Assembly (NCBI RefSeq): GCF_003946245.1
Contig: NZ_RHNN01000012.1
Location: forward strand, 1-64,000
DNA length: 64,000 nucleotides
Source of the DNA: Levilactobacillus cerevisiae
GTDB taxonomy: Bacteria > Bacillota > Bacilli > Lactobacillales > Lactobacillaceae
Reading direction: 5' to 3'
A program made the position numbers and the translations under genes. Under the pieces are notes generated by a model. The model saw only the letters and a list, made by a program, of their open reading frames with translations, was not told where the DNA came from and did no database searches. Shown here piece after piece: positions 877 to 59,650 of the stretch; the first letter of the stretch is position 1; every line of letters starts with the position of its first letter.

Positions 877-1555
877 TTGCGTAACCTCCCAAAATAAGTC
901 ATGATAAGGATTAAAGTAGACGACATCGTGATGATGTCTGGCTGAATACTGATGCGTCACTTTAAAGTATACCGCATTCAGTACGGATGGCGGTAGTGAC
1001 GTTGCAGTTCAGAAGTTAACTAAAGGTTGAAAGCTAGCGTGTCGGGATAGCCCGTTACTAAGCGGATAGCATTAGAAAATTGGCAACACGGAAGCGGAGC
1101 CGACTGCCATATGACAGTTGTTTTGGCAATGTAAAGTCGAAGAACTAAATTCCACAGTTGAGCCTGAATTGGACTCACTCACGCCTACTTAGACTGTGCC
1201 AATTGAGGGAGACAAACGTTGTCAGTCCAGTGATTTTAGCGGCAATGTCCTGTTAAAAACCAATCATAACCGGAGGAGGACAGAGATGGAGGCAGTTGTG
1301 GCGACGGTGTAAGCTGGGAACCAGCTTACACCGTGGGACGTGTTTGGAGACTGTCGTTTTTTTAACAGGCTTCAAACCGAGCCGGAGGACCGACCCTCAG
1401 GCCGCAGGCGCTCCCCATAGCAGCCGGAATCTCTGGCAGCCGCAGGTGGCAATTAACCACTAACTTTGTGGATTGAATCCCTGTTTGCTGGACTGTTTCA
1501 ACCTTTAGAAATTAACCAGCAATTGCTGGCAGTGTCAGGAAAGAGTGGGTAAACG
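877..1555. other. Long intergenic region holding repeat copy A
   Basis: Divergent spacer between the hydrolase and the acetyltransferase. Apart from repeat copy A (about 1079-1492) I see no reliable gene. The short frame with a good ribosome binding site starting at 1286 belongs to the repeat and stops after eight codons. Confidence 0.6.
1079..1492 (+). repeat. Dispersed intergenic repeat, copy A (variant 5' part)
   Basis: It shares with copies B and F a segment starting near 1153 (CACTCACGCCTA and following), the motif GTCAGTCCAG, the ribosome-binding-site-like GGAGGAGGACAGAG before an ATG, a hairpin, GGCTTCAAACCGAGCCGGAG, and a 3' end with TCTCTGGCAGCCGCAGGTGG. The hairpin at 1304-1334 is a perfect 14-bp stem (ACGGTGTAAGCTGG) with loop GAA, the best version among the copies. 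The first 75 nt differ from B and F but share GGCAATGTAAA with copy D, so there seem to be two 5' variants. Confidence 0.85.
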
Positions 1556-4873: not shown

Positions 4874-4943
4874 CTTTGGCGGACTGAGATTGAAAGATGA
4901 AATGTTGGCATAACCTCTACACTACAAGGAGAGGGCCCTGGGT

Positions 4944-5427
4944 ATTGGCAACGTTGTCTAAACCTGCCGCCTTGCCGTTCGCCAAATTTAGGCCGGAACG
5001 CTGTGGGTAGGGCGCAGGCAGCCTGGAAGGCGGTCTGTCAGCTCGCTTTGAACCGTCTGACCCGCGTTTCAAAGTCGCCATTTTCCAAGAAGAGCACATG
5101 GAAAATCCCACGGCTGAGCCTACGCAGACAGTGGCCAATTATTCTGGACAAATATCGTCAGTCCAGCGATTGTCACACGAATGCCACGTTGAAGAACAAT
5201 CGTAACCGGAGGAGGCCAGAGGTGGAGGCAGCTGTGTCGACGGTGTTAGCTGGGAACCAGCTTACAGCGTGGGACGCGTTTGGAGACTGTCGTTTTTAGA
5301 CAGGCTTCAAACCGAGCCGGAGGACCGCCCCTCAGGCCGCAGGCGGTCCCCATAGCAGTCGGAATCTCTGGCAGCCGCAGGTGGCAATCCTCAACTAATT
5401 TTGTGGATTGAACCTTTGTCAGCTAAC
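4944..5427 (+). repeat. Dispersed intergenic repeat, copy B (near full length)
   Basis: About 484 bp, collinear with copy F over its whole length. Shared blocks include CCAAATTTAGG, GGAACGCTGTGGG, CTCGCTTTGAACC, GTTTCAAAGTCGCCATTTTC, CACATGGAAAATCCCACGG, GGTGTTAGCTGGGAACCAGC and the 3' core. Hairpins seen: TTTGAA/TTCAAA, ATTTTCCA/TGGAAAAT, CTGTC/GACAG, and GGACCGCC/GGCGGTCC (5322-5349). Relative to F it lacks about 22 nt after GAGCCTA, consistent with a deletion between GCCTA repeats. It lies between a terminator and the serS promoter and interrupts no gene. Confidence 0.88.
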
Positions 5428-5457
5428 TACCTCTGATATACGCGTTGTATTTTCCAA

Positions 5458-5486
5458 TTGTCATTGTTGGGCAAATGCGGTATGAT
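5458..5486 (+). promoter_or_regulatory. serS promoter
   Basis: TTGTCA and TATGAT are 17 nt apart, directly upstream of the T-box leader and just after repeat copy B. Confidence 0.75.
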
Positions 5487-5493
5487 AAATGTA

Positions 5494-5707
5494 TTCAAAA
5501 ACACGAGGTGCCTTTCAAGTAGACGGCCAGAGAAGCGGGGGAAGCTGCAAACCGCGACGTCGAACATTCCAGCACTAACTAAAGTGGGCGGGTAATGCCG
5601 CACGGTGCAGACCGTTATCATGTTCAAGGGTGTAGCTGGCTGATTAGTTACGAACTTGGGTGGTACCGCGAAGGTCTTCGTCCCATGTGACGGAGGCTTT
5701 TTTTGTA
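5494..5707 (+). ncRNA. T-box leader of serS (tRNA-Ser sensing)
   Basis: The canonical T-box sequence GGGTGGTACCGCG is at 5658-5670, followed by a 12-bp terminator hairpin (5671-5700) and a T run. The 5' domain has an AGAGA element and a GCGG/CCGC distal hairpin. A Ser codon TCC at 5568-5570, in the context GAACATTCCAGCAC, is the best specifier candidate. In this family uncharged cognate tRNA stabilises the antiterminator, so serS should rise when seryl-tRNA is low. Confidence 0.9.
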
Positions 5708-5738
5708 TCATCCGTGAAAAAGAGAGGAGCACAACACA

Positions 5739-7066: not shown

Positions 7067-7105
7067 TTGTAACGAAAGGCTGAAAGGTAGTAACCTTCTA
7101 TAAGG

Positions 7106-7194
7106 GCAGGCGGTCCCCATAGTAACCGGAATCCCTGGCAGCCGCAGGTGGCAATTCCAACTAGTCTTACGAATGCCGTCTGTGTTAGCTGGGC
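7106..7194 (+). repeat. Dispersed intergenic repeat, copy C (3' fragment)
   Basis: Only the 3' end of the element is present: GCAGGCGGTCCCCATAG, then CCGGAATCCCTGGCAGCCGC, AGGTGGCAATTCCAACTA and the end TGTTAGCTGGGC. The upstream 390 bp are missing. It sits between the serS terminator and the tRNA operon promoters. Confidence 0.8.
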
Positions 7195-47701: not shown

Positions 47702-47904
47702 ATTGGCACCATCAGTTAAATCTACCGTCTGACACAACACGTTTCGGCAATGTAAAATCGGGAATCATGTGTCATGGCAGGCTTCAAACCGAGCCGGAGG
47801 ACCGATCCTCAGGCGGCAGGAGGTCCCCACAGCAGCCGGAATCTCTGGCAGCCGTAGGTGGCAATTTCCCACTATTTTATGAACTAAATCCCTGTTAGCT
47901 GGGC
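47702..47904 (+). repeat. Dispersed intergenic repeat, copy D (internally deleted)
   Basis: A 5' part related to copy A (ATTGGCA start, GGCAATGTAAAATCG) is joined directly to the 3' core beginning GGCAGGCTTCAAACC. The core continues GAGCCGGAGGACCG and CTCTGGCAGCCG, and ends CCCTGTTAGCTGGGCC. The middle of the element, including the small frame and the GAA-loop hairpin, is missing. Its 3' end lies 5 nt from the asnA stop codon. Confidence 0.82.
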
Positions 47905-48953: not shown

Positions 48954-49236
48954 AACAAAAAGGTTTTCCATCCCTTGTATAGACAAGGGACGAAAAACCT
49001 TTTCGCGGTACCACCCAAGTTGTCGATCCCAATGATCGGCCAGCTCAATTAGAGTACAAACATACTCTACCGATGGTAACGTACCGGTTAACGGCTTACC
49101 CTAGCGTGACTGAGTCATTTCAGGAAGCAACTAAGAAAGTGTTTTTCGGTTAAATCAAACGCTGATTGGGTTCGCACTAACTCCCAACTCACTGACAGGC
49201 TGATCAAACGTACTCCTCTTTCCTACGTTTTTTATC
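48954..49236 (-). ncRNA. T-box leader of asnA (tRNA-Asn sensing)
   Basis: On the minus strand the T-box motif GGGTGGTACCGCG is at 49004-49016, followed by a long terminator hairpin (AAAAGGTTTTTCGTCCCTTG pairing with CAAGGGATGGAAAACCTTTT) and a T run. The 5' domain has GGAAAGAGGAGTACG and a GTTGGG/CCCAAT distal hairpin. AAC at 49149-49151 (in TTTAACCG) is a specifier candidate for Asn. Cognate amino acid is inferred mainly from the gene. Confidence 0.9.
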
Positions 49237-55245: not shown

Positions 55246-55390
55246 GGAGCACTCACGCCTGCTGGGTCTGTAACCAATGACTCAGATAAACGTTGCCAGT
55301 CCAGCGATGATCATAGCAATGTCAGATTGAAGTACTAATCATAACCGGAATCTCTGGCAGCCGCAGGTGACTGGCTTGGACTAATTTAGT
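55246..55390 (+). repeat. Dispersed intergenic repeat, copy E (internally deleted)
   Basis: The middle part ACTCACGCCT...AAACGTTGCCAGTCCAGCGAT...AATCATAACCGGA is fused directly to the end TCTCTGGCAGCCGCAGGTG. The fusion point is CCGGA, which occurs at both borders of the missing 190 nt in copies A and B. The 3' end overlaps the stop codon of the minus-strand dehydrogenase gene. Confidence 0.8.
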
Positions 55391-59151: not shown

Positions 59152-59650
59152 ATTGTGGCGACATTGTGTGAAGTTGCCGGCTTACCGTTCCCAAATTTAG
59201 GCTGGAACGCTGTGGGGAGGACGGCCTAAGCCGAAGAGCGGTCTTGGACCTCGCTTTGAACCGCCAAACCCGCGTTTCAAAGTCGCCATTTTCCAAGAAG
59301 ACCACATGGAAAATCCCACGGCTGAGCCTAAATTTGGCTCACTCACGCCTACATAGACGACGACCAACTATTCTGGACAAAGGTTGTCAGTCCAGCGATG
59401 GTCGCATCGATCTCATGTTGAGGAGCTATCCTAACCGGAGGAGGACAGAGATGGAGACAGCTATGTCGACGGTGTTAGCTGGGAACCAGCTTACAGTGTG
59501 GGACGCGTTTGGAGATTGGCGAATTTTGCCAGGCTTCAAACCGAGCCGGAGGACCGCTTCTCAGGCCGCAGGCGGTCCCCACAGCAGGCGGAATCTCTGG
59601 CAGCCGCAGGTGGCAAGCTTTAGCCAATTTGGCACCAACGCTCCTGTGGG
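59152..59650 (+). repeat. Dispersed intergenic repeat, copy F (longest copy)
   Basis: About 499 bp, collinear with copy B. An outer 13-bp perfect inverted repeat CCAAATTTAGGCT (59191-59203) with AGCCTAAATTTGG (59325-59337) encloses two nested hairpins, TTTGAA/TTCAAA (59255-59281) and ATTTTCCA/TGGAAAAT (59288-59314). Further hairpins follow: GTTAGCTGG/CCAGCTTAC-type, TGGC/GCCA and GGACCGC/GCGGTCC. A frame with ribosome binding site GGAGGAGG starts at 59451 and could encode 70 residues. It separates cydB from cydD. Confidence 0.88.

Follow-up and report, generated by a model that had tools for sequence, protein, structure and literature searches.

The window analysed here, a stretch of 64,000 nucleotides (positions 1-64000 of contig 4 of a Levilactobacillus cerevisiae genome of 3,375,178 bases in 82 contigs), contains a sequence of about 0.5 kb that recurs six times, as copies A to F. 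This raises the question of what kind of element the repeat is, how it became dispersed, and whether its sequence has been preserved for a reason. We put at roughly three in four the probability that it is a miniature transposable element (MITE) with ends of the IS4-family type that carries a divergent pair of a selected folded module, which we call D. Below, we present the evidence for the successive parts of this reading and weigh it against four alternatives.

Copies in the window and in the genus

The six copies were all recovered, by a repeat search and by covariance-model matches, near the positions given in the first-pass annotation. All of them lie on the plus strand. Copies B (4940..5430) and F (59156..59630) are, according to the alignment, nearly full-length with decayed ends, and their reported collinearity was borne out, as query bases 7-462 align at 81% identity. 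Copies C, D and E had been described as partial, and they are: C (7105..7194) is a fragment with the 3' end of what we will call the right module, detected by the repeat search together with a weak model match; D (47720..47904) has a reduced right module; and E (55250..55390) is a fragment with an internal deletion. Copy A is present where it had been placed, but its start, given as 1079, lies 59 bases further out, so that this copy spans 1020..1508; it is a MITE with inverted repeats at its two ends and a reduced left module.

The expectation that the genome would contain many more copies was also correct. The 24-base core GGAATCTCTGGCAGCCGCAGGTGG has 128 matches in the 3.375-Mb genome when up to 3 mismatches are allowed (74 forward and 54 reverse), against none for the reversed pattern under the same conditions, and 81 exact copies are found among the 100 matches listed. 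A blastn-type search of the same genome, in which 40 of 279 candidates were scored, gave at least 51 matches. The repeat has relatives in other Levilactobacillus species, with a match in 27 of the 35 genomes of the genus, the source genome included; the plasmid and phage collections gave no match to it. The repeat is mostly intergenic, since only 3 of 99 copies in the source genome lie within an open frame of at least 100 codons; one of these three, at G000:C23:50677 (locus L024), lies within a frame of 287 codons. Many copies in this genome are incomplete or carry internal deletions, which recur at certain places. A separate repeat of about 110-130 bp, common to the source genome, G010 and G022, is present in or near some of the elements (L008 2531-2649, L137, L139, L149, L153 and L170).

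The genes next to these 99 copies show the strand combinations (upstream, downstream) (-,-) in 30 cases, (+,-) in 26, (+,+) in 25 and (-,+) in 8, and in the other 10 one side has no gene found. Gene ends facing the element are 3' ends in 113 cases and 5' ends in 75. The idea of a transcription-oriented control element was rejected, because there is no preference between the co-directional orientations of the neighbouring genes.

Inverted ends, target duplications and an empty site

The repeat had been reported to lack terminal inverted repeats and target duplications. This was mistaken: copy A and many copies in sister species have both. The inverted ends, CTAAAGGTTGAAAG, are 13-14 bp long, the target duplications measure 7-9 bp, and intact copies have sizes of 489-702 bp. 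In the case of copy A, the ends (1020-1032 and 1496-1508) form a perfect 13-bp inverted repeat consisting of CTAAAGGTTGAAA and its exact inverse, and the flanking 7-bp duplication (AAGTTAA at 1013-1019, AAATTAA at 1509-1515) matches at 6 of 7 positions. Intact ends were not found at the window copies B-F. An alignment of 16 copies of the source genome and seven of sister species showed outer sequences common to only some of them, and a pattern combining the core with the right end occurs in 4 copies of the source genome, in 19 of G022 and in none of the other 33 genomes.

At 59 loci from nine sister species, both ends lie within 3 mismatches in 29 matches. As raw counts, 12 of these 29 have exact duplications of 7-9 bp, which come from six species, nine have a duplication with one mismatch (in one case just 6 bp long), and eight are without a convincing duplication. 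Examples of exact duplications are CTGTTTAA (L137), ATAGATAG (L141), GCATTAA (L133) and CTAAAAT (L145); L131 is one of the copies without. When up to 2 mismatches were allowed, the 99 copies of the source genome showed 12 left ends, 12 right ends and three copies with both, compared with 0, 1 and 0, respectively, for the reversed-motif control. At up to 3 mismatches, both ends were found in seven of these copies versus four in the control, and because these counts barely exceed the control we used the 2-mismatch counts for the source genome.

Copy L226 of G031 is flanked on both sides by GTATATTAA. In the sister species G032 the same flanks are joined directly, the element is absent and GTATATTAA occurs once, as is expected of an empty site; at this locus G027 has a short left match and a weak profile match. 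We firmly conclude that the repeat is a MITE, i.e. a non-autonomous DNA transposon, of Levilactobacillus. Copies without ends and the strong covariation described below could also be produced by a non-mobile family of structured RNA genes amplified by ordinary duplication. The exact target duplications in six species argue against such a family, and the empty site refutes it for the intact copies; we regard it as scarcely credible. G005 also has elements of 262-480 bp (L164, L165 and L166) that share these ends and have duplications of 7-8 bp; they constitute related MITE subfamilies.

A probable partner insertion sequence of the IS4 family

As the first-pass annotation had stated, the repeat itself contains no transposase: the transposase matches in the source genome are on contigs 37, 41 and 56, and there is none on contig 4, to which the window belongs. 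In L. hammesii, nine contigs stop 54-56 bases within the terminal sequence, as would be expected for a longer multi-copy element. When 84,980 species, each represented by one genome, were searched for one such end, 13 stretches were found, in five genera of Lactobacillaceae. In L180 of Secundilactobacillus oryzae, a transposase of 447 aa lies between two such ends and matches the IS4-family model NF049925 with 471.3 bits (cutoff 250); a matching duplication was not found at L180. Within the genus, L186 of G013 is an insertion sequence of 1,559 bp with the same ends and an exact 8-bp duplication, CTGATTAA; no match to the covariance model R1 (see below), and hence no D, was seen in it. By eye, the translation of the partner transposase contains what we take to be the YREK motif, Y-x2-R-x3-E-x6-K. 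We consider an IS4-family insertion sequence with these ends the probable source of the transposase. The repeat, for which the first-pass annotation knew of no described element, has the ends of an IS4-family insertion sequence.

A transposase match is present in 17 of the 35 genomes of the genus, several of which have only fragments or weak matches, and is absent in G022, G005, G027 and G028, genomes with intact or many MITE copies. As G022 and G005 have many intact copies, the partner was not seen where the MITE is youngest. In the source genome, an open transposase fragment lies on contig 56, at a distance of 70 bp from an exact end, and contig 41 has a transposase remnant. A related insertion sequence with the end CTACATGTTGAAA (L188-L191) encodes a transposase that is 50-53% identical to that of L180.

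The ISPepr1 subgroup consists of elements of 1500-1600 bp with 7-8-bp duplications, AT-rich targets and ends of the form YT-AA-YTT---A (PMC2266710). The partner L186 resembles this subgroup in its size of 1,559 bp, its 8-bp duplication, its ends starting with CT and its AT-rich targets (PMC2266710). By eye, CTAAAGGTTGAAA fits the end consensus of the subgroup at 7 of 8 positions, position 7 being G instead of Y (PMC2266710). In addition, the partner transposase falls within the IS4-family model NF049925. Save for position 7 of the ends the agreement is good, and the repeat appears to be a MITE of an ISPepr1-like IS4-family element. It differs from the subgroup in that it has no transposase and in that its interior, unlike its ends, is not related to the insertion sequence. 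IS231-type mobile insertion cassettes, which belong to the IS4 family, lack a transposase and carry foreign cargo between IS4-family ends. The MITE described here shares these three properties with them, but differs from them in that its cargo is non-coding, folded and co-varying. In our reading, the MITE would be mobilised in trans by an IS4-family transposase through a cut-and-paste mechanism, and the majority of copies would lose their ends after insertion.

A divergent pair of folded modules

RNAalifold gave -273 kcal/mol for an alignment of 33 full-length copies and -252 for its reverse strand, compared with -143 to -154 for ten column shuffles of the 33-copy alignment. The predicted fold consists of two domains, in each of which a long stem encloses three hairpins. 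When the right domain is taken as its reverse complement, it is homologous to the left one (local score of 46 versus at most 22 in 200 shuffles), the score on the same strand being 15. Covariance models led to the same result. Of these, R1 was made from the right domain and R2 is a wider model. The right modules of copies A (1265..1452), B (5201..5387) and F (59430..59616), all on the plus strand, obtained R1 scores of 203.9, 217.9 and 208.2 bits, respectively. The left module of copy F (59174..59353) was found on the minus strand with 35.7 bits for R1 and 57.7 for R2, and that of copy B (4976..5139), also on the minus strand, with 36.4 bits for R2, compared with 24.7-26.2 for the reverse-strand echoes in that search; these values have to be read against a baseline of about 24-28 bits, which is the score of the reverse-strand echoes of right modules. 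R1 also matched the reduced right module of copy D (47720-47864, 35.6 bits) and part of copy E (55285-55373, 19.3 bits, E 0.0017). Therefore, the unit is not a single block of about 0.5 kb, as had been supposed: these comparisons show the element to be a divergent pair of a module D of about 190 nt, D(-) followed by D(+), the two modules being inverted homologues. A short reading frame that had been noticed by eye within copy B's right module was discarded, because rows of G022 read ATG TAG at that place and the frame is shifted by differing loop lengths.

REPIN/BIME elements, too, consist of a folding unit in inverted pairs, with units of 20-40 bp. A REPIN/BIME-like origin, in which a RAYT-type HUH transposase mobilises inverted pairs in single-stranded form, would agree with the inverted pairs, the intergenic position, the many copies and the single-strand folds. 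However, the modules here are far from that size, at about 190 nt, and the element has DDE-type ends and 7-9-bp target duplications, neither of which HUH enzymes are known to make. We consider such an origin very unlikely.

Covariation and the strand of folding

Two data sets were used to follow changes in the fold of the MITE. The first comprises 77 full-length copies of 10 species, with a consensus only for species having at least four copies. In the resulting nine species consensuses, 25 of the 109 pairs predicted on both strands show changes from one Watson-Crick pair to another, and 25 of 977 cells are unpaired. The second, for comparisons within species, comprises 72 copies of eight species with at least five copies each, the two domains being denoted DI and DII. 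Among these copies there are 116 double Watson-Crick cells, versus 7.9 doubles of any kind expected from independence; it should be noted that these are cells and not events, that shared variants are recounted, and that 18 of them fall on one pair. Paired positions changed at rates of 4.1% (DI) and 3.7% (DII), unpaired ones at 10.3% and 6.4%, and positions outside the modules at 17.9% (spacer) and 21.5% (ends).

In 45 diverse D modules, 97.6% of the pairs are standard versus 78.4 when shuffled, 45 of 56 pairs changed on both sides, and the covariation score is 0.539 versus 0.181, slid structures scoring 0.019-0.080. As this alignment had been fitted to the R1 structure, the test was repeated on an independent MAFFT alignment, which gave -132.8 versus -24.7 to -35.9 in ten column shuffles, and double changes at 43 of 61 pairs. 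On the basis of these sequence comparisons, we firmly conclude that D is a folded module with the predicted structure.

The balance between G-U and A-C pairs bears on which strand folds. Singleton states are near balance (G-U:A-C of 12:15 in DI and 17:11 in DII), as is expected after insertion. States found in at least two copies of a species lean towards the plus strand in DII (13:2) and towards the minus strand in DI (8:16); both correspond to the same strand of D. For the 45 modules, the ratio is 81:53 at pairs found in both strands. An excess of G-U over A-C favours a fold of a single strand, whether RNA or DNA, and the bias is modest.

Module D outside the transposon

R1 detected D in at least 53 of 301 Lactobacillaceae genomes, from 9 of 40 genera, and R2 in at least 24 of 395 genomes of the order, from 7 of 80 genera, one of which lies outside the family and has a single weak match (E 2.2e-7). 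These searches scored 8 (R1) and 6 (R2) candidates per genome, and consequently missed copies. Among 33 loci (one of which, L269, duplicates L254) there are 10 divergent pairs, two tandem arrangements and 21 loci with one module above threshold. One divergent pair, from genus g38, is bounded by perfect transposon ends and has a duplication; at the other nine, no transposon ends were found on both sides. As nine of the ten D pairs compared in other genera lack such ends, D may not depend on this transposon. The idea of a gene between the two modules was rejected: a single one of the 10 pairs (L267 671-1500) has a long open frame there, of 232 codons, its modules being 830 bp apart.

In genus g20, a single D adjoins the same gene, which we take to be yhgE-like, in five genomes. 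In an alignment of four of these loci, 10 of 66 pairs have changed in a compensatory way, in part within the long stem, and 6 of 66 pairs have a non-standard cell. The identity of D exceeds that of the intergenic sides in L258/L260 (156/179 versus 88/122 and 35/51), L264/L262 (168/183 versus 72/87 and 50/58) and L264/L258 (146/182 versus 54/80 and 41/62), although in L264/L262 it is not above that of the genes (273/308 and 409/441). A divergent pair in two Levilactobacillus species (L252/L253) has identities of 189/200 and 177/186 for D, 238/296 for the spacer and 345/380 for the neighbouring gene, and the 148 bp that adjoin the pair on its right match D in conservation (140/148). The D loci of L254 (G020) and L269 (G015), which are listed as different species, are 100% identical in all stretches that were compared, and this pair was left out.

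These loci have a bearing on whether D serves the transposon or the host. On the one hand, D could be a DNA element for transposition or maintenance, acting in end recognition, protection or folding of single-stranded DNA, with no RNA involved. The arrangement of the divergent pair, with one module on either side of the element, is in line with this, and so is the fact that both strands of full-length copies fold about equally (-251 versus -246). On the other hand, some single and paired D modules without transposon ends stay conserved, and the IS4-family insertion sequences identified here move with their ends, no D being seen in L186, which has no R1 match. We therefore think it unlikely that D acts in this way. 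D looks like a selected folded element, which would act as RNA. In this reading of a MITE carrying selected D modules, selection would keep D foldable as a single strand, D would most likely be read as RNA from the centre of the element outwards and may act as a structured RNA or a 3'-end element, and the transposon would have spread D, which some hosts kept, even as a single copy. Given the rest of this explanation, the odds that D works as RNA seem to us slightly better than even.

Possible conversion between copies

It is also conceivable that the repeat is an ordinary MITE with a functionless, hairpin-rich interior, whose compensatory changes are due to template switching inside hairpins and to gene conversion among its many copies, which would also homogenise D. 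The many broken copies and the balance of singleton G-U and A-C changes agree with this, as do two further observations. Firstly, at the site upstream of serS in three close species (L041, L042 and L044), the flanks are 99% identical, whereas the D modules are strongly different and look swapped hairpin by hairpin, which makes conversion between dispersed copies likely. Secondly, the two orthologous pairs found between G027 and G031 are not closer than paralogues: identities of orthologues versus paralogue medians are 0.92-0.94 versus 0.91-0.92 for DI, 0.96-0.97 versus 0.95-0.96 for DII, and 0.74-0.81 versus 0.79-0.81 for the spacer. This would fit either conversion or an old burst after which D changed slowly in the individual copies. 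However, compensatory changes occur also in the long closing stem, whose arms are about 120-150 nt apart, at one fixed locus in four genomes; D is more identical than the intergenic sides at that locus; and the fold is kept in nine genera. A functionless interior therefore appears quite improbable to us.

In three other same-site comparisons (L032/L097, L251/L023 and L145/L165), D was no better conserved than the flanks, or the orientation of the element was opposite, and these were taken as different insertions. L043/L049 and L145/L165 occupy the same intergenic space in opposite orientation in sister species, which may reflect independent insertions or inversion in place.

Comparison with described elements

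Folded MITEs of bacteria such as QMITE2, BOX and SPRITE are intergenic, present in many copies and have transcripts predicted to fold, and QMITE2 generates duplications of 7-9 bp (PMC10969869). The same three properties are given for Bcr1 (PMC2267715). The MITE described here differs from these elements in that its two inverted modules are large and have three hairpins each, in that the covariation extends over nine genera, and in that the module also occurs outside the transposon. MITEs are common, and a MITE with a structurally selected interior is unusual. It seems that a transposon disperses a folded module here, and that some lineages keep D at fixed places. The more than 100 copies in one genome provide natural replicates to establish whether the structure plays a role in transposition or in the expression of host genes, or reflects mutation and conversion only. 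Tentatively, and with odds somewhat short of even, D may be a structured regulatory RNA of Lactobacillaceae that forms a class of its own and was brought by a transposon, in divergent pairs, to more than 100 sites per genome; hosts would keep many of these copies under structural selection, and one genus would have retained D as a single conserved element beside one gene.

That no described element was known to correspond to the repeat agrees with the literature, as open-licence PMC papers gave no description of the repeat or of D. The repeat belongs to no Rfam family either: at Rfam gathering scores there was no match on D in the window or at nine further loci, and region 4900-5500 gave weak, chance-level matches only. 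Two other sites in the window deserve mention. Upstream of serS, positions 5490-5710 look by eye like a T-box leader, with GGTGGTACCGCG, the same 20-mer recurring inverted at 49002-49021; a T-box was not among the matches at gathering scores in the window scan, which included this region. The same window contains a lysine riboswitch (RF00168, 113.6 bits) at 2161-2343, upstream of a long frame that by eye resembles an amino-acid permease.
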